Below are positions 1,886 through 63,213 of a DNA stretch of 64,000 nucleotides, in pieces (the stretch's first letter is position 1; each line of letters starts with the position of its first letter). Below the pieces are notes generated by a model that worked only from the letters and a program-made list of their open reading frames with translations, was not told where the DNA came from and ran no database searches. The stretch covers positions 1-64,000 of the forward strand of contig JAQGEQ010000346.1 of the NCBI GenBank assembly GCA_034620365.1, in the 5' to 3' direction. The position numbers and the translations under genes are program-made. The stretch comes from Pegea sp. RAD2-039. Its lineage: Eukaryota > Chordata > Thaliacea > Salpida > Salpidae.

Positions 1886-2612
1886 CCTTATTAAATAATC
1901 GATATTTTTCGCTTTTATAGTTACTAGCAAATTTCACAAATTTATTTGGAGCAAACCCTTTAATGATTAATGCATCTGCTACTAATTATTATCTTAAAAT
2001 GTCATCATAAATTACAATTTTATTATCAGATTGTTAACTATAAATGCACATATAAATATCAAAACTATAAAGGCAAGATAAATGCACAAGGACAAAGGTT
2101 TATGATAAATACAACACACACAGTTTACGATTTAATTTTTTTTTGTTAAATTTAAAATTTAACAATTTAAAAGTTTAAGTTATTTTAGGTTCTGTTTGTG
2201 TAAACTTACATTGAAAAACTATATAGAATGTATCATGGTTACTTAAGTTAAAAGATTTTAGTAAGTACGATAAACAAAATTATAATTATTAATAAAATCT
2301 ATCTAAAAATTATTTCTTAAATTTCTAAAATCATTTCATTAAGTATTTAAATATATTTTGTAATAAAATAAAATTGATGGATTTATAAACAAAATGTCTT
2401 TTTTAGTTTCGGTGATAAAAATATAAATTTTCTTAAATTGCAAAACAATTTTATAAAAAAATTAAATGTTTTAACAAAAAGTTTTTTTTAATCCTGTTAA
2501 TTTATAAATTTTATATTTTATCGTTTTTCATAATTATCGAAATATTTATTAATATGTTGTTTTGGTTATCAGTATTTATTAGGATAATTTTAATTAAAAT
2601 TTGACTTTTCAG
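1886..2612. other. AT-rich spacer upstream of GPATCH3
   Basis: No convincing ORF is present. The only recognisable element is a pyrimidine-rich 3' splice acceptor (TTGACTTTTCAG) ending at 2612, directly abutting the GPATCH3 start codon. Confidence 0.6.
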
Positions 2613-5600
2613 ATGAATTCTACCAGTTTTAATGAACTTGTTGCTTTTCAAGATAATAAATATGATTGTTTAAAAGCTTTTTCTTACTGTATAGTAAGAA
2701 ATATTCCAATCATTTTAAGATCTTTTCACTTAAGATCATTTTTTTCTGAATTTGTGGAAAAAAATTGTTTTAAATGTTTCCATTTTAAACACAGATCTGA
2801 AGTTGTTGTTAATCAAGGTTTGTTTTGTTTGTATAAAAAATATAAAGTTTTATTAGCAAAATATTATTCATTTACATAAAATTTTAAACTCTTATTAATT
2901 ATTTATAATTGTAGAAACAATTTATATTTTATTTATTATTATATAATATTTTTACAGATGAGTCTAAAAGTAAAAGAACTTGTTGTGCTGTTGTTTCATT
3001 TTTTAATTCTCAGCAAAGAGAATCATTTATTCAAAAATTTGATGATAAATTTTGGCAATCTGATCTTAATGAAAAATGCATCATTCAAAAAATTAACATC
3101 AAAAAAGTCATCTCTAAAAAGTTAGGAATATATTTTTAAGTTATCAAAATTATATCTATTTTATATAAGTGAATATTTAATTAGAATTATGTTTAAATTT
3201 ATTTAATATTTTATCATATTTCATATATCTCTAGTTTAGATAATTGTTGTAACTTTTTTATGATAATTTAGTTTATATATTTCATTGACTTTAAAAAATA
3301 AAATATCTTTTTATATTTAAATTGAAGAGTATCTAGAATGGTTTATATATAGATAGATCTTTTATTTTATAATTTATAACTTTTATTCTGCTTTTTAAAT
3401 TATAATTTTTAAATAGAATTATTTAATTATTGTAATTTTATTTAGTTTATTTAGTTTTCAACTTATTACAAACATAAAATTTTAGTTCATATATATTTGT
3501 ACTTATTTATTTCAATTAATTTAAAGTAATTATTAATTTAATCTTTAATTTTTTTTATTTTGATGTTCATAAAAGTTATTTTATGAAATATAATTAAATC
3601 CAGCTTTGTGATAATTTTATCAATTTAATTTTTAATTTCTTTTTAGTATCAATCAATTTTTAACAAAAAAAGAGAAGAAAATTCAACAGAAGTTACAAGA
3701 TGGAGATGTAACCATTGAAGATCTTGCAAAGTTATCTGAGTTAAGACCTCCAACAAAAGTGCTTCCTCATGGGAATGTAGGGACCCCAACTCAAATTATT
3801 TTGGATCTAATTAGAAGTTGTAAATTTCCTCCAAGGTTTAATTCTTATCAATTTTATTGAAACATTCTTCTATTTTTGGTCCCAAATTAAACTAATTTTC
3901 ATCATTATTCACTGATATCTAATCCTCATCCTCCTAAGCCCTGTTTACAACCCCCTAAATCCTGTTTGCAACCCCCTAAACCCTGTTTGAATCCCCCTAA
4001 ATCCTGTTTACAACCCCCTAAACCCTATTTGTAACCCCCTAAACCCTATTTGTAACCTCCTAAACCCTGTTTGTACCCCCTAAACCCTATTTTAGCCCCC
4101 TAAACCCTGTTTGTACCCCCTAAACCCTATTTGTAGCCCCCTAAACCCTATTTGTAGCCCCCTAAACCCTATTTGTAGCCCCCTAAACCCTATTTATAGC
4201 CCCCTAAACCCTATTTGTAGGCCCCTAAACCCTATTTGTAACCTCCTAAACCCTGTTTGTAACCTCCTAAACCCTGTTTGCACCCCCTAAACCCTATTTG
4301 TAACCTCCTAAACCCTGTTTGTACCCCCTAAACCCTGTTTGCAGCCCCCTAAACCCTATTTGTAACCTCCTAAACCCTGTTTGCAACCTCCTAAACCCTG
4401 TTTACATCCTCCTAAACCCTGTTTACATCCTCCTAAACCCTGTTTGTACCCCCTAAACCCTATTTGTAGCCCCTAAACCCTATTTGCAGCCCCCTAAACC
4501 CTATTTGTAACCCCCTAAACCCTGTTTGTACCTCCTAATCCCTGTTTGCAGCCCCCTAAACCCTGTTTGTACCCCCTAAACCCTATTTGTAACCCTATTT
4601 GTCCTAAACCCTATAACCTCCTAAACCCTGTTTGTACCTCCTAATCCCTGTTTGCCCTAAACCCTGTTTGCCCCTAGTTTGCAGCCCCCTAAACCCTGTT
4701 TGTACCCCCTAAACCTCCTAAACCCTGTTTACAACCTCCCTCCTAAACCCTGTTTGTATTTGTAACCCCAGCCCCCTAAACCCTGTTTGTACCCCCTAAA
4801 CCCTGTTTTTTTATTTATCTTCTTTTAAAGACTCTATTTTTTTCAGACTAATCAAAAAACTTGGAATCAATAAACTTCTATCAAGACATCAATACAGTAA
4901 AGTCCCTCATGATTACTCTTCTTCCCAATCTTGCTCTTATCCATCCACTAACTTCCATCAAATCCCTGAAAAACAACAAAGTGAAGATGAAGATGACAAC
5001 AGAGGAGAAAGCTGGGAGCTTCACGAAGCTCTCACAGATGACGTCACTGCTCAAGATCGAAATAAAGAGCGATTATTTGAGGAAGACATCGAATTGAAGT
5101 GGGAAAAGGGGGGAAGTGGATTGGTTTTTTATACTGGTTGGTTTTTTTGGGGTTTTTTGGTTTCGTAATTTTTTGAGTTTTTTTTTTAGATGCTCAATAT
5201 TGGGCGAAAGAAGAGGGAGATTTTGATGAACAAAATACTGATAATTGGGATGTAGATATGAGTGAGATGTACGGGGAGGTTGGGGATCGTGACGCGCGAG
5301 ATTTTATGACGATTTGTGAAGAAGAAAGACTTCGTAAAGATCAAGATCTTCATCCTAATCTTGGAAATTTTGAAAGACACACTAAAGGGATTGGTCGACG
5401 GATAATGACTAGATCTGGTTGGGATCACTCTAATCCTGCTCTGGGATCATCTGAAAACGCGATTATTCATCCAATTGATGCAAATGGGCAAACCTCCAAA
5501 AAAGGTCTTGGATACATCGGGGAAAATTTGAACCTATCTGCGGGAACTGAAAGCTTTTATTCCCGCCAACAACGATATTTGGAACCGATTCCAAACTATC

Positions 5601-5944
5601 TCGCTTCATCGTCAAGAAGCAAATTACCTCAAAAAGATCGGAAAAAACTTCAACCAATAGAAGATGGTCTCGTGATTACTACTATATACGACGAACCGCT
5701 CGACATAGATTTACCTTGTGACGTCACTAGGTCACAAGCGTCCACCGCTCTAAAGCGAAGAAAAGTGAAAAATGATGAGGAGAAAAGAGAAGTTGAAATT
5801 CCAGCCCGAAATATTCATGGATCAAAATTAGTTCATCCAAACCGATGGATACATGATGAAGACACAGATGAAGAAGTTGAAAGACATTGTGTTAATTGGA
5901 AACCAACTCTTATAAATTTTGTTCCAGCTTCTATTTCAAAATAA
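2613..5944 (+). CDS. GPATCH3: G-patch domain-containing protein 3 (GPATCH3)
   Basis: Five coding exons join in phase: 2613-2817, 2958-3120, 3647-3835, 4847-5136 and 5190-5944, giving about 533 residues (human is about 525). The N-terminal stretch IPIILRSFHLRSFFSEF matches the human IPSVLRSAHLRSYFSQF region as I recall it. Exon 3 gives PHGNVGTPTQI, exon 4 gives an acidic stretch then IELKWEKGGSGLVFYT, and exon 5 gives EEGDFDEQNTDNWDVDMS followed by a G-patch-like core (FERHTKGIGRRIMTRSGW, then GLGYIGENL) and TIYDEPL. All are GPATCH3 landmarks in the right order. The vertebrate protein is nuclear and has been linked to RIG-I-like signalling and spliceosome contacts; no such role is shown here. 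The start ATG directly follows an acceptor AG. Intron 3 (about 1.0 kb) carries a minisatellite, and the next gene starts 70 nt after the stop. Confidence 0.93.
3900..4806 (+). repeat. Telomere-like ~20-bp minisatellite inside GPATCH3 intron 3
   Basis: About 45 imperfect copies of a 19-21 bp unit of the form CCCCCTAAACCCTGTTTGTA fill most of intron 3. Each unit holds CCCTAAACCC, like the plant-type telomere heptamer, but the TGTTTGTA spacer between copies rules out a plain telomere array. The complementary strand has four short G-runs within any two units. The frequent variant CTAAACCCTATTTGTAG resembles a branch site, pyrimidine tract and 3' splice acceptor. The array ends about 40 nt before the real acceptor at 4845-4846. 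Confidence 0.95.
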
Positions 5945-6014
5945 TTTGTTTCTAATCTTTGTATTTTTTTTTTAGTTTTTAAGATAAGTTTTTGATTTAA
6001 TTAATTTTTTTAAT
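5945..6014 (+). promoter_or_regulatory. Operon-like junction with 3' splice acceptor between GPATCH3 and RAE1
   Basis: Only 70 nt separate the GPATCH3 stop (5942-5944) from the RAE1 ATG (6015). They hold a run of ten T followed by AG at 5974-5975, a strong 3' acceptor, and no AATAAA in the first 30 nt. There is little room for a separate promoter. This is what an operon resolved by trans-splicing looks like. An unusually tight tandem pair with a 5'UTR intron starting inside GPATCH3 is the alternative. Confidence 0.6.
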
Positions 6015-7815
6015 ATGAGTCTGTTTGGAAATTCGTCTAATTTGTTATTTGGAGCAAATTCAAATAGCACAAGTAAGTTTGAACTTACATCTAACATCAT
6101 ATTCATCATTTAATTTTACAGATAACAAGTTTTCTACAAAAGGTTTGAAGCAATTCAAATTAATAATCTTTTAATTCTATTTACAAAATTATATTAAATT
6201 TAGCAACTGGGAGTCATAACCCTATGCATGATATTGAAGTGTCTAGCCCACCAGATGATAGTATCAGTTCTATTGAGTTTGGACCAAGTGGTATGCAAGG
6301 AAATTTTTTAATAGCTGGTTCATGGGCTAATGATGTAAGTGACTTTGTGATACTAGAAGTTAGGTTGTTGTGTGCTTCTAATTTAAATTATCAACTAAAT
6401 TGTGAATGGCTTTTACATTCACTAAAACTTGTCACAACAAACTCAACTGTTTGCTGATTGGTTGAAATTATCAGGTTCGATGCTGGCAAATTGAAAATTC
6501 AGGACAGACCACACCTAAGGCTCAACAAACAGCTCAGGGACCTATCTTGGATGTATGTTGGAGTGATGTAAGATCAAATCTTTCATCGGAATCTTTTATT
6601 TATTAATCTGTCTTCTTTTCAGGATATTTCTAAAGTTTTTTTAGCATCAGCTGATAAAACTGCTAAAATGTGGGATCTTGGTTCTAACCAATGTGTTCAA
6701 GTAAAATAATTACAAATTTATTTGCTGATAAAAGTTTCATTCAATTTGTAGGTTGCTCAACATGACCAACCAATCAAAACATGTCATTGGATTAAAGCTC
6801 CTAATTACTCCTGTTTGATGACTGGTAGTTGGGATAAGACTGTAAAAGTAAACAAATATTTTATATTTTTATAATAATTCGTCGAATTGATGATAATATT
6901 TATCAATATGTAGTTCTGGGACACTAGACAAGCTTCTCCAATGAAAACAATCAATTTGAGTGAAAGAGTTTATTGTGCGGATGTTGTGAGTTGATTCATC
7001 ACTTCTTCTTCATTTAGTTGTTGTTGATCTTCCATAGAAATATCCGATGGCGATGATTGGTTGCGCTGATCGACGTCTTTACTGTTTAAAGCTTGAAAAT
7101 GAACCAACTGAATTTCAGAAACAAGAATCACCTCTTAAGTTTCAAGTTGGTTACTTCTCTTAACTTCTAACATCAACATCTTCTATTACAACAGCATCGT
7201 TGCATCAGTATCTTTAAAGATAAGAGTCAGAGCACTCCTATAGGATTTGCTTTGGGAAGTATTGAAGGTCGCGTGGCGATTCAATACATCCAACCTTCTT
7301 CACCGTGAGTCTTTCTATCTTCTGACAAATGTTGATTTGTTTGATTTATAGAAGAGACAACTTCACTTTCAAATGCCATCGATCGTCAACACAAAATCAT
7401 TCCCAACCCCAAGATATTTACGCTGTGAGTTGGAACCTCAATTTTCAAGATCTAAAAATCTGTTTCCATGGTAACAGGTTAATGGAATTGCTTTTCATCC
7501 AACTTATGGGACTCTAGCAACTGTGGGATCAGATGGGAGATACGGATTTTGGGATAAAGATGCAAGAACTAAGATGAAAGGGTCTGAACAACTGGATCTT
7601 CCTATTTCAGCTTGTGCTATCAATCCTGCTGGCACAATATTTGCATATGCAGCTAGTTATGATTGGTCGAAAGTAACTAGCCAATCAGGAGTGTCTTTAG
7701 ATTAATTTGATGGTTTTTTTAGGGGCATGAATATTACAGTCCCCAACACAAGAATCGAATTCTTCTCCGCAATTTTGGTGATGAAATGAAACCTCGCGGG
7801 AAGAACAATCGATAA
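6015..7815 (+). CDS. RAE1: mRNA export factor RAE1 (Gle2), copy 1
   Basis: Twelve coding exons join in phase: 6015-6072, 6122-6142, 6204-6334, 6475-6567, 6623-6700, 6752-6847, 6914-6985, 7038-7145, 7195-7304, 7352-7424, 7478-7672 and 7723-7815, giving about 375 residues (human 368). It begins MSLFG and carries [83 protein letters not shown] and [14 protein letters not shown], all RAE1 signatures. The family is a seven-bladed WD40 propeller that binds the GLEBS motif of NUP98 at nuclear pores and the mitotic checkpoint protein BUBR1. A 21-nt microexon is present after exon 1. A second copy lies inverted at 59.8-61.6 kb. Confidence 0.96.
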
Positions 7816-9500: not shown

Positions 9501-10743
9501 ACCAACCCAAATAGTTCGAAACTATTTTTTATTCAGATAAAGTAATTTATCACAAGTAATATATAAATCACTTACTAAAAATAATTTTATCACAGCTTAT
9601 AGGTATTTATGCAGATAGAATATAATCTATAACCTGAAAATCTTATTCAAATTGAATTATATTATGTTTACTATACTGTATTTACAGCATTTCGTAGTAA
9701 AAATGTTTACCAACATTTCACAGAATCAATACAACGTATTTCTAGGCAAATAAATTACTAGAAATTCTGATAGTAACGTAAACAAAAATAAATAATACAA
9801 AATATAATGTTGTAGTATATCATTGTACGGGTTATTACTAAAAAATAAAAATTTGTTGTTTAAAACTAAAAGTATGTAGGAAATAAAAAAAAATTTGCAG
9901 TACAAAGTATATAGGGTCTGAATAAACTTCAATTTCAAATTTAAGAGAAATTTAACTTGTTCGTATTTATTTAACTCAAGTGGATTTACTTTTATTAGCT
10001 TTAAGTGTTTTTTATAAATATAAATAAAATTTATTGTTATGAAAATAAGCTGTTAAAACAGCCATTTTAGTCTGTGATTTTCACTATTCAAGTACTTAAG
10101 TCTTTTGTTAGACAAAGATTTCAGATCAGATTATCTTCAATGATATGAACTTAATGAACGGATATGAGTTATATTTATTGAATTTTTCGAAATTTGTGTT
10201 TCAACATGTGCTTACTGGTTAATTAATTTAAAATTTGTCAAAATTTATGCTTATTTCTTAATGTTTTATGTATAATTATATTTTAATTGTAATTTTTATG
10301 GAAATTTTCTTAATTGTTATTAAAACGTTTTTTCAATATGTTTAATGAATTTATGTTTTTTTAAGATTGATTAGTTTTAACTTCATATGTAGATGATTTT
10401 ATATATTTTGTTTATTTATATATTAGAGTAAATTTTTGTTGTTTTTTTATTAGTTTTGATAGTTTTTAAATTATATAAATTTGTTACTTAGATAACCTTT
10501 TAGTTTTTATATCTTAAAATTCTAAAAGTTATAAATAAATAATTTCAATATTATATTTGATTGTTTTTTTTTAGTAAAGAAATTTATAAATAAAAATATT
10601 TTATAAAAAATTTTATTTTTCAATGTTTATTTTACATAATTATATAAAACTGAATCATTTATTCATTTATTTAATTCATTTTTTTATAATATTTAATTTG
10701 AAAGTTTTCTAATTCATGTTTTTCATTCATAATTTCTTTTCAG
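9501..10743. other. AT-rich intergenic sequence
   Basis: Low-complexity AT-rich DNA with no supportable gene. A 3' splice acceptor (TTTCTTTTCAG) ends at 10743, 28 nt before the GMDS ATG. Confidence 0.5.
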
Positions 10744-10771
10744 AAATAATATTTATTTATTTTTCATCAAA

Positions 10772-12300
<1,529 letters not shown>

Positions 12301-14219: not shown

Positions 14220-15282
14220 GATAATTTATTTATTTATTTATTACAATAAATGTGAAGGAAGGTGCCTAAAGAGAGCACCTCTCGCTAACACACATTCTCA
14301 CAAATTAGATCTATTTGACGTGTAAACGAAAAAGCATATGACAGTGAAGAATTGCACAGAATCATAGTATTGTAAAAGAGAAAATTCACAGTTTAGAAAT
14401 GGCAATGTTGGCGATATTATAACAATTCAGCTTTTTTTTGAACAACACAAGTGATTTTGACATGACAATCTCTGATGGCAGATTGTTCCATGTACTGATT
14501 GTGCGGTATGAGAAAAAACTTAATCTGGTTAACGTAGCTGGTGGAGTACGCTTATTAAGATGTAATTTATGTCTTCTAAGTTGATATAACTTGAGGGAGG
14601 GACTAATGGAGAAGAAGTCATCAAACTGAAGATCAATTGGTTGTGAATAATTTTAAAAATCAGAATAAGGTCGTATTTAATTCTTCGGATTTTCAAAGTA
14701 TCTAGATTGAAGAAGCTGAGACGATGCTTATAACTCTCGTATTTGATATTAAGTTTCCTGCAAACCAATCTCGTAAATGTTGCCTGAACAGATTCGATTT
14801 TTCTGATATCACCAACTTGATATGGCATCCATGCACTGACATTGTATTCAAGAATAGGGCGTATGTACAGTTTGAAAAGGTTGACGAAAAACCATGGATC
14901 TTTAGACTTAAAAGTCTTTATGATGAGGTGGACAAGCTTGATAGATTTTTCAAAGATTCTGGAAACATAACTGTGCCATTTGAAGTCAGATGTCAGAGTA
15001 ATGTCGAGGTCTATGACTGAGGATACTCGTTCAAGAATAGATCCATTGATGTAGTATTGGTTGCTGGAGTTGGCACCTGGCTTACGGGAGAATGTTATAA
15101 CTTCAGACTTTGTTGGCTGGATTTTAAGTTGCCAATTCGCAGACCAGTTTTCTACGATGTTTAGTGCAGTTTGGAGTTTTGAGTGAGAACCAGATAATAG
15201 CTTGATGTCATCTGCATACACAAACACACTGACATTGTCTACTGTTATTAGTCTTCTGATGAGGTCTTCAATGAAATAATAA
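14220..15282 (-). mobile_element. 5'-truncated LINE, RT C-terminus and 3' end (longest copy in the window)
   Basis: The minus strand encodes, after FIEDLIRRLITVDN, the reverse transcriptase box FVYADDIKLLSGS, then LKIQPTKSEVITFSRKPG, a thumb-like part with KLYIRPILEYNVSAWMP, IRKIESVQATFTRLVCRKL and the RRIKYDLILIFKIIHN tail. The open part at 14529-15227 is 232 codons. The 3' end is at 14220, where TTTATTTATTTATTACAATAAATG reads as a (TAAA)n tail on the element strand. The motif set fits the CR1/Jockey group. The endonuclease, most of the RT and ORF1 are absent, so it cannot move by itself. Confidence 0.88.
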
Positions 15283-15877
15283 TGTTTAAAAATATTTAAA
15301 TGAAATTGTCTGCTAGCTGAAAAACTGAAATAATCTTTTTAAATGTTGTTCAGTATTGATTTTAATATCAGTGAAGATGTCTTCATATTCAATCTTCTAG
15401 TAACTTTTATTATTCTTTCAATGATTTATATGAATGTTTCAATTTATTCACAAACGATTGAAGAAATTATCAGAATATTAAAAAAAAACAAATAATTTTG
15501 AAAAGAAAATAATTTTGAGTAATAATTTTAAAAGCTCTAAAGATTTAGAATTTTCATAAATTCCACATTTTTAAGAGTTGACTAAAAAATTGAAAGTATT
15601 TTTATTGACTTTAAAACTTTAACGTAAGATATTTTCAAGTTTTTTAAAATATCAAAGTTTTGATATTTCTTAAACTCGTTAAATCGATATCAGCTACTTG
15701 AATAAAACGAATTTTTATTAACAACTATTTAAGTTAACAAATTATTATTTTTTTATTGAATTAATTAGTATAAGTTAATTAAATTAATTCAGATTATTTT
15801 TTAAATTGTTAGTAATTATCTTTACAGAATCAATTAAAATTTGTAAAGAATTATTAAAGAATTATTATTTGGTTAAC
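15283..15877. other. AT-rich spacer, SLC23 3' flank
   Basis: No gene seen. It must hold the 3'UTR of the minus-strand transporter gene that ends at 15878. Confidence 0.5.
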
Positions 15878-18800
15878 TTAAAAGCTTGTTTGAGCTGGGT
15901 TAGTTTCATCTCCTTCGAATGCTTCATTTGTTTCAGCAACTTGTTCAACACCACCAACATTATTAGACGTTGGGGTAGGGAGAAACGGTAGATATCGAGC
16001 CAAACTAAAATAAAAGCCATTTTCGATAATTTAGTTTTTTTTATCATTGTCTAAAAGTTAGATTAAAAACTTAAAATATTTTTTTGTTTAATTACAAATA
16101 ATACAAAATTTACAGACCCACAACAGTCTGGAATTACAGGGTTATAACATTTATCTTGTAAAGCTCTTTCAAATGGATTATTTTTAACTTTTCCAAATGT
16201 TTTTCCAACACCTCTTTCCTCATTGGTTCCTGGTAAAGTGTTATCAATTACAGCAGCAACTACTGCTCCAACTGTTAATGAAGAGTTGAGAAGAACAAAA
16301 AGTGTATTATCTAGATCTTCAATTCCAGTATTAATCTTTATTAGATTACTTTCAATTGCTTGTGGAACCATTAGGCCGGTGTAGAACGAAAAACCAATAA
16401 CAAAAATATTTCTATAAAAAAAAAGAAATTCATTTAATTAACCAAATTAATTACTTAACTACTTTTGATTTTATTAACTTCTATGTTTACTGATTTAGTT
16501 TAGAAAAAGTTTTAATTTACAAACTTAAAAAGTAATGTTTTAATTTCTACCAAAGTTTATTTTAAAGTTTGAATAAAATAAGTTTAAAAGATTTATAGTT
16601 CACTAGTTTAGCACCAAAAATTCTTTAACAGTTCTTTAACAACAATTCAACTTTTATTTTTCGCTTCACCTGCTAGAGGTTAAGTCTACATATCGAAGAT
16701 TGGTTAAACCGATCGCTATAATCATTCCAAACACTACCATAAAGATTCCTCCAAAAACAGGATCAGGAATACTTACAACAAAAGCTCCAAACTTAGTTAT
16801 ACATCCAAGAATTATACTCACGACTCCAGCGACTTGAATAACCTAAAAATAAAAATGAATTGAAGTAATTACAGGTTTAGTGATGCCAAGTTTGATTATA
16901 ATATATAATAATATGTATAAATATATATATAGTTAGAAACAGGGTCTAAACTGTCTACAATGCAATCTACAATTTTGCATTTGAAGTATTTCAGTTTATT
17001 TTAAATGCTGCAAAATAAGAAAATAATTTTAATTAGATTTTTCTAATTCTTTTTGCGTTTTGAAATTTGAACTAATAATTCAGATATTTTCAAATTTCTA
17101 AGATACTTTTATCACAAAGAAATCTGTTGAAGCTACAAAATTATTTACAAATAAAACAAAATTAATGAAAATAATCATCTTACCCTTCTACTTCCAACTC
17201 TAGTAATTCCAATCGCAGCAACATTTTCACTATAAGAAGTTGTTCCGGTTGTCGTTCCAACAACACCAGCAAGCAAACAACCAAAACCTTCCATCATAAT
17301 ACCACGATTCACAGCATGCTTTGGTAGTTGTGGGGCATGTGCCATGGTTGCACAGGCATTATAGTCCCCTATTGACTCAATGATACTTGCACAGATTGCT
17401 GTAAGCATTCCTACTGCACCAGCAACTGTAATCACTGGCAACCCCCATTGACCAGGATATGGACACCGAAACCTAGAAAAATTATAAAGTTGAAACTGTA
17501 AAAAGATTTGGATATTCACCATGGACTGGTGTATACTGAAGAAATTTTAGCGTCTGAACGAGCATTGTAAGAATCATCATTAGGATTATCTGAAAATACT
17601 CCAGCAGATGTAAGAATCAAAGAGAGAATCCAACCTAATATGATCGCAATGAAAACCTACAAGTGTCAAATAGTTTTAAAAGTTAAACTTTGAATTTTTG
17701 AAACTTTTTAATATTGAGTTTCTTTGTTATTTTGTTCAAATCTTTACGAAGTAAATATTAAATGTTTATTTTAAGATTATTTTTGAGCGATAGTTTTCTA
17801 AAAAACAGTAAAACAGCTAGATTTTAAGCCAACAATTTAACTTTCATCATTTTAAGCTTCCTTTTTTTCTATTTTTTTCTAATTTTTTATATTTTTGATT
17901 GAATTTTTTAAAAACTTTATTTTTAGAAGTAATTTATAATAATTATTATACTAACCTAGTTAACAAAAAATTACAAATAAATTAAAAAATATTTTACAAA
18001 TTTAAATAAAACTGATAATAATATAAACTCGAAATCAATAATCGTTTCACTACAGTGACTAATGTACTAAGTATATAAATTAGTATTTGTTAATTGAAAC
18101 TTATCTATCTTCTGACTTTAAATGGCGCAATTAAGTTTCCAAAATTTTTGCAAAATCAGACAACCTTGTCTTCCTTTTCATAAAGACCTTTAATTCTAAG
18201 GTCCCATGCTTTTTTATCAATCTTTTCAAATTGTACGTACGTCCAATTCTTGAATACAATGTCAGTGCATGGATGCCATATCAAGTTAGTGATATCAAAA
18301 AAATCGAATCTCTTCAGGCCACATTTACGAGATTAGTATGCAGGAAACTTAATATTAAATATGATAGTTATAAACATCCTCTCAGCTTCTTCAATTTAGA
18401 TACTTCAGAAATTCGATGAGTTAAATACGACTTAATTCTTATTTTTTAAATTATCCACAATTTAATTGACCTTAAATTCGATGATTTATTTTCCATTAGT
18501 CCTTCCCTCAAGTTATATCAACTCAGACGACACACATTACACCTTAATGAGCCCATATCACCAGGTACTTTAATGAGAGCAAATTTGTTTCTCATATCGC
18601 ACAATTAGTACATGGAATCAGCTGCCATCAGACATTGTCATGTCAGAATCACTCGCGTTGTTCAAGCAGAAGTTGAACCGTTATAATATTGCCAACATTG
18701 TCATTTCTAAACTGTGAATTTTTCACTTTCTAATATTATTAACATTCTATGTAATTGTTCACTGTTATATGTTTTGAGGACTACTGAAATGCCATGTGTT

Positions 18801-20380: not shown

Positions 20381-20842
20381 AATCTACTTCATAAAACTGA
20401 ACAAAAAGTCCTTTAATTTCAAATCTTATTCTTAGTAATGCTGTATAATGTTGACTTGGTAATAAATGAACCTTACAGCAGCTATTTATGAAAGGTTTAC
20501 GGTAAACAAACTTATGAAAAGCAGCATATGATTCATGAAAATAACAAAAATATTTTAAAAATTCAGCTTTTATTAGTTGTTATTCAAAATTGTAAAGTTT
20601 TACTTAAAAAAGGTTGTTGTTTAAGACTAACCAAGCAAAACTTTTTTTTACTCTATCAAATGGAGAAAAATGCGCAGTGATTTTTGAAGCAAATAAATGT
20701 GATTGACCAAAAAAATGTATTTAGAGAATGTTTGAAAACCTTCAAGGTTTTATAAACACATAAAGCTACTTTGTTTGTTTTTTTATATTATAAGTTACTA
20801 GTTCTTATATAAAGTATATAAATATTTAATTTTAACGATACT
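20381..20842. other. 5' flank of the SLC23 gene
   Basis: AT-rich, no ORF. A minus-strand acceptor (TTTTTGTTCAG, its AG at 20397-20398) lies just upstream of the SLC23 start. Confidence 0.5.
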
Positions 20843-21083
20843 TTTTTATCAATCTTTTCAAATTGTAAGTACGTCCAATTCTTGAATACAATGTTAGTTC
20901 ATAGATGCCATATCAAGTTAGTGATGTCAAAAAAATCGAGTCTGTTCAGGCCACATTTACGAGATTAGTATGCAGGAAACTTAATATTAAATATGATAGT
21001 TATAAACATCGTCTCAGCTTCTTCAATTTAGATACTTTAAAAATTCGACGGATTAAATACGACTTAATTCTTATTTTTTAAAT
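20843..21083 (+). mobile_element. Internal LINE RT fragment
   Basis: About 240 bp closely matching the 18.2-18.45 kb LINE segment (TTTTATCAATCTTTTCAAATTG through the RRIKYDLILIF coding part), cut at both ends. Confidence 0.85.
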
Positions 21084-23500: not shown

Positions 23501-25570
23501 TTTTACAAATTCATCAAAAATTGAGTTCTTGATTCAGAAAACTTATCTAAAAATGATTCTAAAAATAGAAGAAAAACACCTGAATCTATTAAATGACATA
23601 AAATATGTTTAGATTTCTATTCAATGATACAAAATTAATATAATAATAATAATACTATCAATAAATCTAACTAATATAAATTTCTGAGAAACAAATAAAT
23701 CAACTTCAATAAAAACCTTATTAAAAATATTTTTATTAATCAAATAAAAAAAAAATTAAAATAATATAAATAGACAATTTAAAGACAAATAATGATAATT
23801 AAATTACAAAAAACATAAAAAGGCATAAAATGAAACTTGTCAGGTATACTGTTAAGCAATATATAGATCATAGAATAGTAATAATTGTAATATAAATTTA
23901 GAGATATATAAATTTGAACTACTAAACCAAGAAAATGTATAATTAAGTTTAAAACAAAACTAAAATATATATGTATACATGCGATATTAAATAATAGTAT
24001 TTTTACTTGGTTCTTAAAAGTTCTTCTTTGGTTATTAAAAATGCGCTTAAAGGAAAAAGAACAAAGATATTAATAATATTAAAAATATGGAATATTGTAG
24101 TAGTAGACGAAATACTATTGACACTTTTCGCGCTGTACTAAAATGGCCTTAACTTGATTTGTCATTTTACAAAAATATACTTTTTATTTATTTATTTATT
24201 ACAATAAATGCAAAGGAGGGTGCCCGAAAAGAGCACTTCTCGTTAACACACATTCTCACAAATAACATCTATTTAGTCAAAAATATGGAGAGTAAAAGAT
24301 GTAAATCATGGCATTTCGATAGCACTCAAAGCATATAACAGTGAACAGTTACATGGAATGTTAATAATATAAAAAAGGAAAAATTCACAGTTTAGAAATG
24401 ACAATGTTGGCAATACTATAACGGTTCATCTTCTGCTTGAACAACGCGAGTGACTTCGACATGACAATGTCTGATGGCAGCTGGTTCCAAGTACTAATTG
24501 TGCGGTATGAAAAAAAATTCAATCTGATTAATGTACCACGTGATATGGGCTTATTAAGATATAATGTGTGTCGTCTGAGCTGATATAACTTAAAATAAAA
24601 AGCTCTGTATTTTCAAACTCGGTAATAACTAAAAAGTCTTTTACGCCAATTTTTTAGTAGAATATGTAAGGCAATCTCTTTAAAAATCCTCAAAAAATTC
24701 CCTTCCTAGCTTTTGCATTAACTGTAGTTAATCTGACTTTTTCATTTCTTTGATTTTAGTATACCATCTGATAGTGTTTCAAAAGATTTTTCTGTTGAGC
24801 GAATTTCAGTAAAAAAATAAAAAATTTTTGTATCAGATTAGTGATAAACTTTGAGAAGTTTATAAATCTATCATTTGATGGTTTTTAAAAACAGACGAAT
24901 ATTTCTATAAAAAGTTGATAATAACAACTATTTAAACAGTACTCTTTAGATTTGAAATTTATTATTTAAAAAGTTTTATCAAAATAATTCAAAGTATGTT
25001 TATAATAATCATTAAATATAGTTATTAAAAGGCTGATTAAAGATAACTATATTCAGCTTGACATCTTGAAATAGAAGTTCAACTTAAAGTCTTAAAGGCT
25101 TAACTTAAAGTAGAAAATATATCACTTAAACAATAATCTGTATTGTATTTACTAAAGATTATTTAAAATACATGAATAATAATAATAATAGTTATAAATA
25201 TAAATGAATTCTTTTTAGAGTTTTTAACTTAAAATATTGCTTAAGTTTTTCTTAACAGTTTTCTAGCACAGCTGTGAGAGAAGGTCACCATTTCTTATTA
25301 TGATTTTCATAAAGTTTTTGTAAATTAAACAACTTTGAAAAATTCTTAAATTGCAAAATTATATTTTATTCTTCCATTAAATTCGGTCTATAAAGTTTCT
25401 GATGAAAACAAAACAATATATCAATGTTTTGATAAGTTTTATTTTGCTAAGAAAGACTTGTTAGGCTTTGTAGATATATTGTAGACAAAAATATAGCTCT
25501 TTTATAACATTAAGTTAATAATATCAGTTTTAATCAGAAAAAAACAATAAAATATGATAAATAATTTTAA
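23501..25570. other. AT-rich intergenic sequence with one LINE piece
   Basis: Apart from the LINE fragment at 24183-24600 I see no gene. The TFIIIC90-like 5' flank, including an acceptor at 23559-23560, is at the left end. Confidence 0.5.
24183..24600 (-). mobile_element. LINE 3' end fragment
   Basis: The shared 3' terminal region (TTTATTTATTTATTACAATAAATG, then GAGCACTTCTCGTTAACACACATTCTCACAAAT), running on to GAGCTGATATAACTT. Minus-strand orientation; about 410 bp, without coding capacity of note. Confidence 0.88.
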
Positions 25571-27728: not shown

Positions 27729-29640
27729 CGCTGAAATACTTAAAACTTCAATTAAACTAAAAATTAAAACTTACTTTTAACACAAAAATAACTTTTCTGA
27801 AATGTTTTTCCACCATGTTTTTTCTACTTTTTGTTTTTTAACTTTTCTTTAATAACATCTATCAAAAACTTAACGTTTTTAAACTCTGATAATCTTTAAT
27901 ATAAATAATCTTTTCTTGCATTAATTAAAAAAAATTTTCTCAAATTTAAATTTTTTGAATATAACCTTGTTAATACTTTTTACAAAAAAATTAACTTTTA
28001 GATTTTAATACTAAAGTAACTCCTATGAAGTAAAAACAATAGAAATAGGTTATTTTATAAAAACAAAGTACACTTTTTTCGAATAATATTTTGGCTTATT
28101 TGCTTGTAATTCAGAACTTTAAAATTAAACAACTTTTAAAATTCTTAGGAATTATTTTCACTTTAATAATAATGTCTTATTTCTGCTAAATAAAAACAAT
28201 TTTGGCTTAAAATAAGTAAAATATTCACAAACTTTGCAATAAATATTCATTATTAACTACTTTACATATATGCAAATAATATACCTAAACCTTTGGTTGC
28301 TTTTTCTATTTTAAAATAAACATTAGCTGAAGTAAATTAAGAAACTTCACATCTCAAACATAATTTTTTCATCTTCTGATTAATCGTAGCAATGTATTGT
28401 TTTTATTCTATAGAGTAATCTCTACACAGGTCATAGCAAAAATTTAATAAATTATAAAAATTTGATGTATAGAACTAATCCTTTACATAAAATAGTGTTT
28501 TCTAAAGTTAAACACAAAGTATCGAATATATATAAATATTATTTATACGAATCAAGCGCACAAAGTTAGACATTTCATTGCTCATAAATTTCTAGGCTTT
28601 TTTCCAATTTTTTTTTCAGCTTTTCCAAAATTATTTTGATTAAATCTGTAATTAATCGTCTTTAAAAATAAAAAATAAGTTATCAAAACTTGTTTAACTT
28701 AAGACATACTATCAAATTTCAAATAATAAAAAAGTCAAAAACGGCCAAATGGTTTGAAATTTGTCAAGAAATTTTTATTATATTTAAATTTAATTTATTA
28801 ATAGTTTATTCTTTACTATTAGAGTAAAACTGGCCAACTTTTTTTGAATTTTTCAAGATATTTTGTTTGCTATACTAGAAATTTGTCAAATAGTTTTTAT
28901 AATTGGAAATTTAATATTTTATTTTCTATTTTTACTCTGATAATTGTATTTTATTGAAATCTTAAAATGTTTAACTGAATTTCTATAAATTTTTAATTTT
29001 TTTGTTGAAGTAATTTCTTTATTGTTTTCAAATATTACTTATCTATTTGTTGATTTTGTATTTTATATAACATCAAGTAATTTAATATCATCTTGATTAT
29101 TCTTCTTCTACCTGTTATGTTTTCTAACACATGTTTAAAAAATTAAAGTAAATATAATTTTATTTTTTTCTGAAATTGTATAAATATAATTGTTATATCA
29201 TTTACTCATTGCTTATATTTACAGAATTTTAATTAATTTAACTTTATCTTAACTTATTAACTTATATTTACTCAAAAAGTCATTCTTTTTATTCCATCTT
29301 ATTCACTTTATTTATCAAATCATCAAAGACTTCTGTAGTTTACTCTTTTTGTATTTTACTAACTTATTTTGTTTTATTTGTTTTTTTTGTCATTTAACTA
29401 AACTTAAATATGTTTAATTTATATTGATAATTTTTATTATGATTAAAATTTGGGTTTTTGTATATTGATGTATAATTTATATTTTAAGCAATCTATTGCT
29501 AAATGTTTAATATTTTTGATTAAACTCCAAATTTGTTTATCTTATTTGCTTTTTCTGGAATTTGATTTTATAATTTTTTCTTAATCATTTATTTATAAAT
29601 TGTATTTAATAGATTTTTATAATTTTTATTAGATATTATT
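27729..29640. other. Very AT-rich intergenic sequence
   Basis: I find no gene or repeat beyond homopolymer-rich AT DNA. Confidence 0.5.
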
Positions 29641-46246: not shown

Positions 46247-49046
46247 ATGAGTGGAAAATGTGATAAAACAGCTGGAAAAAAACGTAAATTAACTTGCGTC
46301 TTGCATTTCGATAGCGATGATGACGTCACATGTGATATAGATTTTACACCTTTCAGTAAAGTGAAGATTTCAATAAATGAAAAACTGGAAGAGTTGAAAA
46401 TGATGAGAGATTTACGGATGCAGCAACCGCTGTGTCCACGAATGAAAAAAATCTGTAAAGAAATTCCAGAAAAAATAGATAAAGATGAAATGGACTGGAA
46501 AGGATTTCATAACAAATGTCATCAACGATTCATGGATAACTCTCTTCCAAATGAACATCCAATTACTTCGACTTCAATTTCTGCTTCTTTTCAACCAATT
46601 TGTAATCAATGTGAACCACGTGATGTAAAGAATACTCTTAAATTATCCCTTACAGAGCAAAGTAAAATGCCGCGATTTATAAAAATTGCTGATAAGTTTA
46701 CAAACAGTACAGCTAAAGTTTCAGACTTTTGTATAGAATCAAATCCATTTAGTTTCTTTACAAATCTTACTACTGCACAAGACAGTGCTTTTAAAGTAGT
46801 CATCAACTTTGTACAGGATAGTATAATAGGAAACAAACAAGTTTCATCAGTTTCAGTTTTAGAAGAGATCTATTCCAACAAGTTAAAAGCAATCGGACAT
46901 CCAGAACAGTTCAGAAGAGATCAATTAAAATCCAGACTTCAAAATCATTCATCTTATGATAATTTAGAATTTACTAAAGTTACTAACAGAGGTCAATTGA
47001 ATGTGGATTTGGTTTATAGCTCTTATATCACAAAACAGGAAGCAGTTACTAACGCTTATAAGACTGGGAGCAAGTTTTATCTAGAAGACGCAGCTTTACA
47101 ATTACATAATCGAATTAAGATCGTTTTCAAAGAGTTTACAGCTACAACGCAATGGGAACCAGTTTTTTCGACTTCGAAAGGAATTTCAACACCGACTTCG
47201 CTTCTAACTTTTATTAATCAGATTGTTACTGGAAGCAGCACAAAGACTTCAATTACTCCACAGTTTAAAATCGACACCATTTGTCAGGTTCGTAGTCTGG
47301 AGTTAGTAGAATATTGTAAAGATGTTTAATATTTCAGGATATTTGCCGAGCTGCAATTGAAGAGTTTGGAAGTAAGGTAATAACAAGTTCTTGAAATCTA
47401 CTTGGAGTTATATTTAATTTATTTTGTAGAGTTTCCCTCATGAGGAAGTTATTTCTACAAAAAAAAATCAAAATTGCGACGTTATTAAACAATCAGTTCT
47501 GGATCTTCTTTTTGAAGATTTTGATGGAGAAGCTACAACTTCTGAAGATTCTTTCTTTATATTTGACGCATCAGTTATCATGGAATCGAATAAAGTAGAA
47601 AAAAATAAAGCTGAAGATCTATCACTTGAAATATTCAGAAAAATTTGCAAAAAGAAATCATTTGCGTTTTTATCAGGAGTTCAAAAGTCCGAAGACACTG
47701 AAAGTTTTTCAAAGAGGATATTTAAAGTATGGTCGAGTAATTCAATTCTTACTGAACTTAAACAAACTAAAATGGTTTTGTTTGTAATTGGAGATGCAAC
47801 ATACACCATATATGAGGAAAACAACCAGGTAATTACTCTCATATCTTGTATATTGCTTTAAAAGTTTCATTTTTTAGGTCAAAACAAAGTTAATACCAGA
47901 ACTTAAGACAACCCATACCTTATCGGCAACCAAAGTTATAAATCTCATAAAATATGTGGAGAAAATTGGATTCAATTTAGTTGTAATCAACTCATATGAT
48001 GATGATTTAATCTTTAATTTAATTTATCATTGTGATGATTTTAAGTTGAAAGTATTTTTGGATTTTGTGATGTCTAATAAGCCACAATGTTTTAATTTGA
48101 GTGAATTTGCAAAATTTAAAACACAAGACTTCTGTTCTGCTATCTTAGGCGCCCACATTTTTATGAATGATTTTAAAAGTGTGGTCAATAAGCCAAAGCA
48201 AGAAATAATGAGAAAACTTTTATACAATCCAAAGTTCCAGTCTACTTTCAGGTTATTAAACATTTCTTTTCATTTTTTTTAGTTTTTCAATTTAAATTAC
48301 GCCGACTGATTTGAAAATATTTTCAAAATTCAAAGTTTAAAGACAATTTTCCAACAATCGAAAGATGAACAAATAAATGAACCTTGGATCTACTAAACCA
48401 TTTAAGATTGCAGATAATTGATATCTATTAAAAATAATCTTAAAGACATATTTTCAAGTTCCCAATAATGTTGCAATTAATATAAAAATATAAATTTAAG
48501 TAATTTCGATTATACTTCAATCTTTTAAATAAGTTTCTAATAATTATTTAACTTGTTACCATAATTATTATAAATCAATTTTTACATTTTTATTTTATTT
48601 ATTACAATAAATGCGAAGGAAGGTACCTGAAGAGAGCACCTCTCGCTAACACACATTCTCACAAATAACATGTATTAAGTTAGAAATATAGAAAGTAAAA
48701 GATGTAACACGTGGTATTTCAGTGGTCCTCAAAACATATAACAGTGAACATGGAATTATCATTTATAAACAAATAATTATTTTACAGAGAGCTTGGAAAA
48801 AACTTTGATATAAATAAGGAGCTGATGATAGAACTTGAAGCTTTTATTTGTGTTCTTTTTAATAATCCACAAGAAACATCAATTGAAGCACTTATAAAGA
48901 AAAATGAATTTACAAATCAAAACATAAATCTTTTTTCAACTAAGAAACAATTTATCTCGAATATCTTAAATGTGAATCGTAATTTGATGATTTATAAAAA
49001 CTCCTTGGACAATTTTTTTATTATTAAGGAGTCAATTAGTGATTAA
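46247..49046 (+). CDS. Unrecognised 703-residue protein
   Basis: Five coding exons in phase: 46247-47287, 47338-47376, 47430-47828, 47878-48251 and 48788-49046. An upstream in-frame ATG at 46229 is possible; MSGKCDK at 46247 looks more natural. The N-terminus is basic then acidic (KKRKL, FDSDDDVTCD), followed by WKGFHNKCHQRFMDN, a His/Cys pattern (F-H-x3-C-H-x2-F) like the short WxxFHxxCYxxF motif I associate with large repeated protein families in invertebrate genomes. The middle has FFIFDASVIMES, and the second half is a mixed alpha/beta stretch with MVLFVIGDATYTIY and FNLVVINSYDDDLIFNLIYH. I cannot assign a function; a domesticated mobile-element protein is a guess. LINE DNA sits antisense in intron 4. 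AATAAA occurs at about 49096. Confidence 0.7.
48590..48752 (-). mobile_element. LINE 3' terminal fragment in an intron
   Basis: TTTATTACAATAAATGCGAAG, then GAGCACCTCTCGCTAACACA; about 160 bp inside intron 4 of the unknown gene, on the opposite strand to it. Confidence 0.87.
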
Positions 49047-53290: not shown

Positions 53291-53489
53291 TTTAATTAAA
53301 TTTGAGATTAGGGTGTGGTATTTATTAAGATTTTCTTTTTTCTTCTTTATCTCAAGTAAACAGGAAGTCGAAGATATCTTTGATTAGAAAAAAATGACTT
53401 TCTATCGAGAGCTAAGATAAATTTAAAGATTGAAATCTTATCTAGTTTAATTGAACTTAAATATTAATTTTTGTTTTATACAAGTCGAA

Positions 53490-53920: not shown

Positions 53921-54155
53921 AAATTGATTCATTTAACGATTTAATGTTTAGAATTTTAGATATTATAGCTTTAAGCAGAAAAGCGTTTAAATTTTTAAAA
54001 TAACATCTGTTTGGTTTAATGTCAAAAGCTTTAAGCAAAAATAAAAGGTAAAAGCTTCAAAAACGTTTTTTAAAAGCATATAACAAACATCCATGCTTTA
54101 TTTTTGAAATGAATTTTTAATGTAAAAGTTATAAAAGAAAAAAATTGAGGTATTC

Positions 54156-58606: not shown

Positions 58607-59791
58607 TTAAATAAAATGGTATTTCCTAAAAATAATCATTATTAATTGATAAATAAAAAAGTCCAGAAAAAGCTGCAGCTTAAATATTTGCCAAGTGATA
58701 ATTTATTTATGCTTTAAACATATTTGTTTATTAAGCAAACAAAATAAAATGAATTTTATTTGCTCAGTAACATTATTAGTTAAGTGAAGAAAATTTTAAG
58801 ATTCTAATTTTTTAAAACAGAATAATCTAAAAAGTTTATTTCTAAATTTGCTAGAAAAATAAATATTTACTATCATTATATTGTATATATATTACATTGC
58901 AATACGTTGCAGCACCAATTATTAAATATATTTGAAAATACACAAAGCGTGACCACAAACTTTGTTTTCGGGTGAATCCCCTTATTAAAAAAAAAACTTT
59001 TAATTTAAATTCTTTAAAAATTAAATTAAGTGTTAATTAAAGACATACTTAATTAAAATACATTTTAATTTATATATATTTTTAATTATTGTATTTGTTA
59101 GTATAAAAAAAATTATTTTAAAGTTATTTTAAGGTTTTTATGTTAAAAGTTTATTCAAAATGAGTAAAAAATTTAAAGAATTTGCAATTACAAGTCTGCT
59201 TATATAAAAAGTTCAACTTAATAAATGTTAAAAAACTGATTATAATGAAAATTAAAAATATTTTTGCCACGTTGTAAACTAATCTTTATGATTTTCATCA
59301 TTTGTAGACTTGTTCTGAGCAGATCTTGGTTTGAAGAACAAAAGTCGACTAAGTCGACGCCGTTACTTTAAAAAGGTAAAAACTTACCTTTTTGCATTAA
59401 AAATCATTGGTTTAAACTCAGACGTTTTTGCTTTATCCACAAATAAATGTAACATTAGCAATTTTTATCTAAATTAACAACAAACTCAAGCAATGAAAAT
59501 GAAACCTGAATTGCTGACTAAATAAATTACAAAATTCAATTTCTCTAAACACTTTAAAACAAATGACAATCTAGTTAAATAGTTAAGAATAAGCTTCCTG
59601 TGAACGGATAGTGACGCAAAAGAGAAATAAACCTGAAACGTTTTAAACATATTAGTATATTGTTTGAAACAAAACTTTTTAAAAACAAAGAAAAGTAGAA
59701 AATATCTTCACATTTGTAAATGGTTTTATTTCGAAAGCGTGAAAAGTATTTAATTACAAAATTTAATGGTTAATTATTTAACAAAAGGAAT
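58607..59791. other. AT-rich spacer
   Basis: 5' flank of the phosphatase, with a minus-strand acceptor at 58626-58627 (TGATTTTTAG), and 3' flank of RAE1 copy 2. No gene seen. Confidence 0.5.
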
Positions 59792-61621
59792 TCATCGGCT
59801 AGTTTTTCGTTGCTTCATTTCATCTCCTAAGTTCCGGAGAAGAATTCGATTCTTGTGTTGAGAATTGTTGTGTTCATGCCCCTAAAAAACCATCAAATTA
59901 ATCTAAAGACACTCCTGATTGGCTAGTTACTTTCGACCAATCATAACTAGCTGCATATGCAAATATTGTGCCAGCAGGATTGATAGCACAAGCTGAAATA
60001 GGAAGATCCAGTTGTTCAGATCCTTTCAGTTTTGTTCTTGCATCTTTATCCCAAAATGCAAACTTTCCATCTGATCCCACAGTTGCTAGAGTCCCATAAG
60101 TTGGATGAATAGCGATTTGATTAACCTGTAACCATGGAAAAGTAAACAAAATTGAAATTTTGATGAAGAATCAACTCACAGCATAAATATCTTGAACTGA
60201 TGTCTCTGTACTACGATGGCATTTGAAAGTGAAGTTGTCTTTGCTAAAAATAAAGATTAAAAACTGAAAGATTTGATAGAAAGACTCACGGTGAAGAAGG
60301 TTGGATGTATTGAATCGCCACGCGACCTTCAATACTTCCCAAAGCAAATCCTATAGGAGTGCTCTGACTCTTATCTTTAAAGATACTGATGCAACGATGC
60401 TGTTGTAATAGAAGATGTTGATGTTAGAAGTTAAGAGAAGTAACTAACTTGAAACTTAAGAGGTGATTCTTGTTTCTGAAATTCAGTTGGTTCATTTTCA
60501 AGCTTTAAACAGTAAAGACGTCGATCAGCGCAACCAATCATCGCCATCGGATATTTCTGTGAAAGATCAACAACAACTAAATGAAGAAGAAGTGATGAAT
60601 CAACTCACAACATCCGCACAATAAACTCTTTCACTCAAATTGATTGTTTTCATTGGAGAAGCTTGTCTAGTGTCCCAGAACTACAAATTGATAAATATTA
60701 TCATCAATTCGACGAATTATTATAAAAATATAAAAGATTTGTTTACTTTTACAGTCTTATCCCAACTACCAGTCATCAAACAGGAGTAATTAGGAGCTTT
60801 AATCCAATGACATGTTTTGATTGGTTGGTCATGTTGAGCAACCTACAAATTGAATGAAACTTTTATCAGCAAATAAATTTGTAATTATTTTACTTGAACA
60901 CATTGGTTAGAACCAAGATCCCACATTTTAGCAGTTTTATCAGCTGATGCTAAAAAAACTTTAGAAATATCCTGAAAAGAAGACAGATTAATAAATAAAA
61001 GATTCCGATGAAAGATTTGATCTTACATCACTCCAACATACATCCAAGATAGGTCCCTGAGCTGTTTGTTGAGCCTTAGGTGTGGTCTGTCCTGAATTTT
61101 CAATTTGCCAGCATCGAACCTGATAATTTCAACCAATCAACAAACAGTTGAGTTTGTTGTGACAAGTTTTATTGAATGTAAAAGCCATTCACAATTTAGT
61201 TGATAATTTAAATTAGAAGCACACAACAACCTAACTTCTAGTATCACAAAGTCACTTACATCATTAGCCCATGAACCAGCTATTAAAAAATTTCCTTGCA
61301 TACCACTTGGTCCAAACTCAATAGAACTGATACTATCATCTGGTGGGCTAGATACTTCAATATCATGCATAGGGTTATGACTCCCAGTTGCTAAATTCAA
61401 TAAATATAATTTTGTAAATAGAATTGAAAGATCATCAATTTGAATTTAATTTGAAAACTTGTTACATAATATATTTATAAGAATTTTGGAAAAAAGTGAA
61501 ATTTGAGAAATAGCAAAACATTTATATTCTTTATAAAGTATTATTAAATTAAAAAGTAAAAAAAAAACTTACATTTGTTATTAGATTTAGCACCAAAGCT
61601 TGACCCTCCAAATAAACTCAT
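59792..61621 (-). CDS. RAE1: mRNA export factor RAE1 (Gle2), copy 2
   Basis: Eleven coding exons in phase: 61573-61621, 61260-61390, 61027-61119, 60894-60971, 60747-60842, 60609-60680, 60449-60556, 60290-60399, 60180-60243, 59931-60125 and 59792-59881, about 361 residues. It carries the same WD40 signatures as copy 1 and the same intron positions, except that the 21-nt microexon is lacking (its place is plain intron with the splice signals changed). Several introns are nearly identical to copy 1, including the one after GSWAND. Differences cluster in exon 1 ([16 protein letters not shown]), in the [10 protein letters not shown] loop (3 residues shorter), at VNQIAIHP and [10 protein letters not shown], and in the last exon ([10 protein letters not shown], tail QRKTSR). 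The frame is open throughout. An acceptor lies 34 nt before the ATG. Confidence 0.95.
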
Positions 61622-63213
61622 TTTTAAAAATTATATTTTCAAAAATTAAATGATTCTATAAAAAATGAAAAAATGTTGATAAAGATAATCAATTATTTGA
61701 TGCATAAACAATAAAAAGACAAATCAAAAAATAAAATAAAAACACAAAAACAGAATCATAATTAATTTAAATTTAATATAAAATAATAAATAAAATAAAT
61801 TCAAATAATTTAGTTATCTAATTTAAATATAATATACCAAAATATAATTTTTATAAAAATTAATTATATTATTTTCCTAATTTAATGTTTTTCATGGCTA
61901 AAAAATAGATATAAAAATATGATTAGAATAAAAAATTTCTAAAAAAACTATTTTTATTTAAAACAGTAAAAATATAAATTATAAAATGTTAAAAAAGAAA
62001 ACTTGGAAAAATATCAAAAGATTAAAAATATTAGCTAAGAATGATATAAAATAAAAATACTGTAAAAATGATAATAAATTAAAAATTAAATAATAAATTA
62101 ATTTGTTTTAGTTAGAATACTATTTAACTAAGTTAAAATAAAAGTTAGTTTTCAAAATAAAAAATATTCCTTAGTCATAAATGAAAAAATATAAACTTGC
62201 AAAAACCATCACAAATAATATAGGAATAAATTATAAAATAATATATGAATATATTCTACATAACACTCATATAATTGACACAAAAATCATATATGCACAG
62301 ATATAAAAACAACATTATTAAAATCTTTAATAAAATTCACAAATAAATCTTACTAGACTATTTGTATTGAATATTTGTTAAATATGGCTCCTTTATTACA
62401 AACCCAAATTTATTAATATAAATGATTAATAAAATATATAACTGATAAAACAAATGAAAAAAGATGTAAAAGAAAAACTAGAATTTATATAATTAGTTTT
62501 TGAAAGCGTTTCAAAGCATGGTTCAATATAGTAATTATTGAAAAACGGATATTATGGTCAAATTCATTTAATCCTCATTAATAACACAGACCTAATGTAT
62601 TAAAACCTCATTTGACATAAAAAACAAAAGTATTTTTAACAAAAAATCAAAAATAATTTTAAGTAATTTTATTATTATGGTAAAATAAGTTCTTAGGGTC
62701 AAGTACAAAATAAAAAAATTAATATTTGTTTTATAATACCTTTCTGCAACGCTTTTGGTTAAATTTTTTAAATTTGTCTTTTAAAAATGAAATGCTAAAG
62801 TTACTTACATTGATTAAGTATGAGCTAATTTAACAACTTAACTTTGGATAATTGATTTGATTTTTCGAAAATATTCTCAGCAGAATAGCAAAAGTTTAAA
62901 ATATTTACTGTCCGATATTATTATCAAATTTCTCTTTGAGTTTTAACTTCTACATGTTTCCTAATGAAGCTAAATAGATTTTAAAAGTTAATCCCTATAA
63001 AAGTATTTTTTTGTAAAATTAGATGATCTATTTTTGCTCATATAAACAAAAGTCTAAAATATTTACTGTCCGATATTATTAGCGAATTTCTTTAATTATA
63101 TTAATTATTATTAATTAAATTCTGATAAACAATTTGACTATTTTTTCTATTAGAATCGCAGATTATTTTCGCTAAAAGGCGAAAAAGTTGAAAAGAAAAT
63201 AAATTCTATCTTT
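61622..63213. other. Very AT-rich intergenic sequence
   Basis: No gene is supported. It contains one 42-bp direct repeat pair listed separately. Confidence 0.5.
62890..63090 (+). repeat. 42-bp direct repeat pair
   Basis: Copies at 62890-62931 and 63048-63090 share AAAATATTTACTGTCCGATA and flanking bases with about four mismatches, start to start about 158 bp. It is too complex to be chance AT similarity. Confidence 0.85.

Follow-up and report, generated by a model that had tools for sequence, protein, structure and literature searches.

Splice-acceptor signals before most start codons in a Pegea sp. genome window suggest spliced-leader trans-splicing

A 64,000-nucleotide (nt) stretch of the genome of the salp Pegea sp. 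RAD2-039 (assembly GCA_034620365.1, contig JAQGEQ010000346.1, positions 1 to 64,000; here called the window, G+C content 22-37% across 4-kb windows) raises the question of why most of its start codons stand shortly after what looks like a 3' splice acceptor. Spliced-leader trans-splicing, perhaps with many different leaders, is probably the best explanation. It had been proposed as a possibility in a first-pass annotation, and is here predicted from the DNA by an enrichment of acceptors, a lack of matching donors and the presence of candidate Sm-site RNA genes. Contig C148, which holds the window, belongs to an assembly of 105,744,746 bases in 387 contigs. Gene names are those of the first-pass annotation, checked by reading the translations rather than by family search. 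A simple gene model was trained on the window, and 71 internal introns were drawn from nine gene models; the gene finder was home-made, the intron set includes wrong calls, and some introns of RAE1-like gene 1 deviate from hand reading.

An acceptor matrix was built from the 71 internal introns, and sites were sought within 70 nt of the ATG. Internal acceptors had a median of 6.5 bits when scored leave-one-out. All 12 of the acceptor AGs previously proposed were present, behind more or less T-rich stretches, with scores of 5.2-10.7 bits. Their distances to the chosen ATGs, proposed as 0 to about 60 nt, measured 0-58 nt, and the SLC23-like and TFIIIC90-like genes each have one extra ATG between the AG and the chosen one. 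The sites are as follows.

2611..2612, plus strand: acceptor AG of the GPATCH3-like gene, 0 nt to ATG 2613, 6.6 bits
5974..5975, plus strand: acceptor AG of RAE1-like gene 1, 39 nt to ATG 6015, 8.9 bits, in-frame stop between AG and ATG
10742..10743, plus strand: acceptor AG of the GMDS-like gene, 28 nt to ATG 10772, 8.45 bits
20397..20398, minus strand: acceptor AG of the SLC23-like gene, 16 nt to ATG 20380, 6.8 bits
23559..23560, minus strand: acceptor AG of the TFIIIC90-like gene, 58 nt to ATG 23500, 9.8 bits
26502..26503, minus strand: acceptor AG of the gene for membrane protein A, 22 nt to ATG 26479, 8.9 bits
27731..27732, minus strand: acceptor AG of the gene for membrane protein B as first proposed, 2 nt to ATG 27728, 5.2 bits
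27757..27758, minus strand: stronger alternative acceptor AG of the gene for membrane protein B, 28 nt to its ATG, 8.2 bits
29705..29706, plus strand: weak acceptor-like AG of the ZCCHC4-like gene (ATG 29723), 5.2 bits
35298..35299, plus strand: acceptor AG of the HIP1-like gene, 47 nt to ATG 35347, 5.3 bits
43398..43399, plus strand: acceptor AG of the eIF3i-like gene, 43 nt to ATG 43443, 9.05 bits
51494..51495, minus strand: acceptor AG of the ZP-like gene, 12 nt to ATG 51481, 6.9 bits
58626..58627, minus strand: acceptor AG of the phosphatase-like gene, 19 nt to ATG 58606, 7.8 bits
61656..61657, minus strand: acceptor AG of RAE1-like gene 2, 34 nt to ATG 61621, 10.7 bits

For membrane protein B the AG first proposed at 27731 exists, but the matrix prefers the AG whose G is at 27757 (8.2 vs 5.2 bits). 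An in-frame stop codon lies between AG and ATG in 8/12 of these genes, so that the AG belongs there to the 5' untranslated region (UTR); GPATCH3, GMDS and the two membrane protein genes have no such stop. The 12 genes, the ZCCHC4-like gene, two receptor genes and an open reading frame (ORF) at 46247 make up the 16 gene starts of the window. The receptor genes had been described as lacking the signal, and scored 0.85 and 2.4 bits; the ORF at 46247 was also without it (3.0 bits).

Sites of at least 5 bits were found at 13/16 window starts, compared with 254 of the 861 noncoding ATGs of the window that served as background (Mann-Whitney p 2.8e-5), and sites of at least 6.5 bits at 11/16 vs 130/861. 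A replication set of Ras-family genes was chosen so as to escape the gene choice of the first-pass annotation. From 147 matches, 51 of which start at profile positions 1-3, 40 were picked and 32 sequences used (12/32 were shorter); five were dropped because they had no in-frame ATG, leaving 27 starts, which include two with an identical printed N-terminus (L141, L148). Sites of at least 5 bits preceded 17/27 of these starts (Fisher 4e-4; Mann-Whitney 3e-5), and sites of at least 6.5 bits preceded 12/27 (Fisher 3.6e-4). Without the matrix, a YAG was found no more than 60 nt from the ATG in 40/43 starts (16 from the window and 27 from the Ras family) vs 546/855 noncoding ATGs, and the tract before the nearest YAG was 51% T vs 36% in controls (p 2e-7). 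The proposal of an acceptor before most starts is thus borne out in the window and repeated in the Ras family.

One pair of genes in the window is arranged like an operon.

2613..7781, plus strand: GPATCH3-like gene followed by RAE1-like gene 1, operon-like pair (from gene models, with an approximate RAE1 end)

The stop codon of the GPATCH3-like gene ends at 5944, and the G of the acceptor of RAE1-like gene 1 lies 31 nt farther on. This gap is a hint that the pair may be an operon resolved by a leader. The RAE1-like copies are inverted (6152-7790, plus strand; 59814-61446, minus strand), with a BLASTN identity of 94% over about 1.65 kb. No BLASTN match was found across their first exons and upstream DNA; the match begins at 6152, so that the upstream DNA lies outside it, and both copies have strong acceptors despite the absence of a match there.

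Ordinary introns in the 5' UTR, the alternative named in the first-pass annotation, would join each acceptor to a noncoding first exon with an unrecognised or distant donor. The acceptors fit the model of internal cis introns, introns are present in most named genes according to the gene models, and long introns occur (2/71 internal introns exceed 400 nt). However, 62/71 internal introns are no longer than 200 nt (69/71 no longer than 400 nt), and donors at such distances showed no enrichment. Within the 200 nt upstream, the median score of the best donor was 6.89 bits at the 71 internal introns, compared with 4.68 at the 13 window sites of at least 5 bits and 5.37 in the background; internal introns exceeded the 5' sites (p 4.4e-4), with the caution that internal acceptors are preceded by coding exons and 5' sites mostly are not, and the 5' sites did not exceed background (p 0.92). 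Stretches of 120, 300 and 400 nt gave the same outcome. At Ras-family sites the donors equalled background (5.37 vs 5.37, p 0.39; 15/17 scorable, short stretches having less than 200 nt upstream). The earlier remark that matching donors are not evident therefore held for the 13 window sites, where no excess over background was seen with a test that recovers the donors of internal introns, and the donors that 5' UTR introns predict were at or below background. As a group, cis donors within intron length are not above background; single genes may have one. A 5' UTR intron of RAE1-like gene 1 would moreover need to have its own 5' end within the GPATCH3-like gene or in the 31 nt that follow. Given this spacing and the lack of donor excess, ordinary 5' UTR introns fit poorly, and we regard them as an unlikely general explanation.

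The pyrimidine-rich AG could instead mark the start of transcription, either as an initiator such as TCAGT or as a polypyrimidine start. At several sites TTTCAG or TTTACAG precedes a T or an A, which is near the initiator consensus. Against this, a matrix made from introns only scores the sites as high as introns, both CAG and TAG occur among them behind a T-rich tract, and a TATA-like word 15-40 nt upstream was not above background (2/30 vs 797/8883); we consider a start-site signal very improbable. Still harder to credit is chance in AT-rich DNA, or the mistaking of internal exons for first exons. Sites of at least 6.5 bits do occur before 15% of noncoding ATGs, and at 4/12 of the proposed sites the reading frame is free of stops between AG and ATG. 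Against this reading, of which chance had also been named as an alternative, stand the enrichment in both the window and an independent gene set, the in-frame stops of the other eight genes and the RAE1-like proteins, both of which begin with MSLFG, as the human protein does.

If spliced-leader trans-splicing operates here, the primary transcript would start upstream of the acceptor, at a promoter of its own or in the preceding gene (as in GPATCH3-like followed by RAE1-like 1), and a short Sm-class leader RNA would come from another place in the genome, where a promoter of the small nuclear RNA (snRNA) type drives it. The spliceosome would join the leader donor to the acceptor shortly before the ATG, the outron would be discarded, and downstream genes would be freed from shared transcripts.

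Genes driven by a promoter of that type were found in the assembly. U1 and U2 gave 19 matches each and share the element CCRCAAAY about 48-49 nt upstream of the RNA. The element pattern CCCACAAACNNNAANNTT had 77 matches in the genome vs 1 in a reversed control, and the genes behind it, among those read, include U3, U4, U6 and RNase MRP (Rfam), as well as U5-like and tRNA-Sec-like genes (labels by reading). U6atac is present in the genome and carries the same element. The element also precedes small RNAs built as a 5' part, an Sm site and a hairpin; those tested had no Rfam match with an E value of 1 or less, apart from one on the opposite strand (E 0.61). A looser pattern gave 1048 matches vs 132 in its control, many of which were judged to be copies of repeats resembling long interspersed nuclear elements (LINEs).

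Two further families stand behind this element. In one, a small RNA, the element and a TATA-like box precede the conserved stretch CACTGATTTGCATTTCCATTGCATTTCGTGG on C36, C73, C89, C93, C128, C166 and C254 (L051-L054, L075-L077); these contigs hold 15 element matches, seven of which were read, with no clear Sm site by eye. The other is a multi-copy, GTGCAAAGCGGYTACTGCAGCCA-like RNA on C60, C89 and C93 (L081, L131, L132), which has a TATA-like box in most listed copies and again no clear Sm site by eye.

Besides the promoter element, candidate leader RNA genes have a GT, an Sm site and a hairpin at the 3' end. Looser patterns yielded families on C8, C102/C247, C188, C224, C267/C286 and C278, in addition to single loci. 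A genome rule requiring the element and a GTW at a distance of 1-7 nt from the Sm core ATTTTNG downstream found 66 loci vs 8 in a reversed-pattern control; the element and Sm site alone would account for part of this excess, so that the count is by itself no test of the GT. On C8, C72, C102, C188, C224, C247, C267, C278 and C286 lie 61 of the 66, and C188 holds 11 near-identical loci (80 letters per copy read). The GT was assessed in 22 distinct 5' types that had already been read to the end when the GTW rule was framed; types within one family are not fully independent. In 11/22 types a GTW preceded the Sm core by 1-7 nt, whereas shuffled sequences gave an expectation of 4.58 (P 1.5e-3). Outside a group of Sm-site RNAs termed class A the figure was 10/14, with 3.24 expected (P 7.9e-5). 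Leaving out two types that came from a pattern in which AGGT is required (L127, L128), it was 10/20 overall (P 3.1e-3) and 9/12 outside class A (P 1.5e-4).

Class A is found on C72, C94 and C282 (L046-L050, L065-L074, L137; 22 element matches, 16 read). Its members have a variable 5' part, a constant 3' hairpin and often an extra inverted repeat near the expected start, and those tested had no Rfam match on their own strand. Class A was set aside as a source of leader RNA, GTW being near the Sm site in 1/8 types. Also rejected was a leader gene linked to a 5S array, in which a spacer resembled the start of the bdelloid leader and no Sm match was found in that 10-kb stretch. A short Sm-like double motif had no matches, a search for COX1 likewise found none, and six leader-like words had no match in the literature searched.

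Several observations weigh against trans-splicing or against these leader candidates. Raw gene-finder starts in 149 kb of other contigs, many of them judged wrong or truncated, had sites of at least 5 bits in 12/36 cases, close to the background rate. A PSMA1-like gene whose start seems complete scored just 3.4 bits; roughly half of the genes may carry the acceptor signal. Both the class A split and the 1-7 nt rule are post hoc. Known leaders are for the most part invariant, and the candidate 5' parts vary from family to family and also inside a family: mean identity across 14 C102 loci was 84% in the promoter and 48% in the 24-letter 5' part of the RNA, and for the nine C102 loci without near-copies it was 81% and 39%. 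Candidate donors are mostly weak (internal donor median 6.4 bits): those of the C8 family score 5.7 and 4.2 bits, and those of the C102 family reach at most 4.5 bits, several copies being below 3. The 23-nt leader GGCTTATTACAACTTACCAAGAG of bdelloid rotifers (given in a table in the excerpt used of PMC3795323) had no matches at up to 3 mismatches in the 105.7-Mb assembly. The first-pass annotation had suggested looking for a multi-copy leader gene with an Sm site: candidates with a GT by the Sm site were found, but their 5' parts are divergent and their donors weak. That the element-driven Sm RNAs are leaders is a lead which we hold at less than even chances, and that they meet the acceptors and leave a leader on messenger RNAs is something we infer.

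A more specific picture can be proposed tentatively, as a possibility that we rather doubt. The genome would contain dozens of leader RNA genes; each family would conserve its promoter, Sm site and hairpins, the leader would be almost free to change, and the messenger RNAs would carry many different leaders rather than a single one. Class A would be a second class of Sm RNA that shares the promoter element and has equally variable 5' parts.

Other features of the window were recorded. A minisatellite of CCCCCTAAACCCTGTTTGTA-like units occupies about 3930-4800, within an intron of the GPATCH3-like gene, and a low-complexity repeat at about 467-1671 has several open frames on the minus strand; a strong G-skew marks the first 4 kb. 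Fragments of a reverse-transcriptase ORF lie at 14386-15338 (minus strand), 18131-18717 (plus strand), 20822-21081 (plus strand) and 24385-24612 (minus strand). They were judged LINE-like from their translations, and the longest contains a YADD stretch.

Comparison with known systems draws on excerpts of the papers cited. Spliced-leader trans-splicing in animals is described from nematodes, flatworms, tunicates, cnidarians, ctenophores, rotifers, hexactinellid sponges and others, scattered over the phyla, with single or multiple origin an open matter (PMC7986045). The Pegea sequences resemble these systems in the lone acceptors just before starts, in the same-strand gene pair with its 31-nt gap, and in the multi-copy Sm-site RNA genes with an snRNA-type promoter. 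They differ in that no single invariant leader is established here, the leaders being candidate genes. Lone acceptors together with leader candidates driven by snRNA-type promoters could allow trans-splicing to be suspected from DNA without RNA data.

The spliced-leader (SL) RNA of Ciona has its donor close to the Sm site, and the candidates likewise carry a GT shortly before theirs. There is one SL in Ciona, and the search there asked for an Sm motif 2-25 nt downstream of the donor (PMC7986045, in the part used), whereas the candidates here have an ATTTTNG-like core, a distance of 1-7 nt and many dissimilar 5' parts. The glass sponge Aphrocallistes vastus likewise has a compact genome with short introns and many different leaders among its reads; in the excerpt of PMC10282587 the leader is about 37 bp, predicted leaders occur in 4% of long reads, and the diversity is ascribed to read error. 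A study of expressed sequence tags from the monogonont rotifer Brachionus plicatilis found, in the portion drawn on, no conserved leader (PMC1925144). Precedent for diverse leaders comes from Hydra and a chaetognath, and Hydra vulgaris, with SL-A and SL-B to SL-G, has several leader types and AAUUUU-like Sm sites (PMC7986045, same excerpts). Its six long SLs comprise eleven variants, whereas the 5' parts found here come in a dozen or more unlike forms. Trans-splicing itself is known in several animal groups, and what would be new in Pegea is the large number of divergent leaders; if they are real, the leader sequence itself would be hardly constrained, which bears on what leaders are for.

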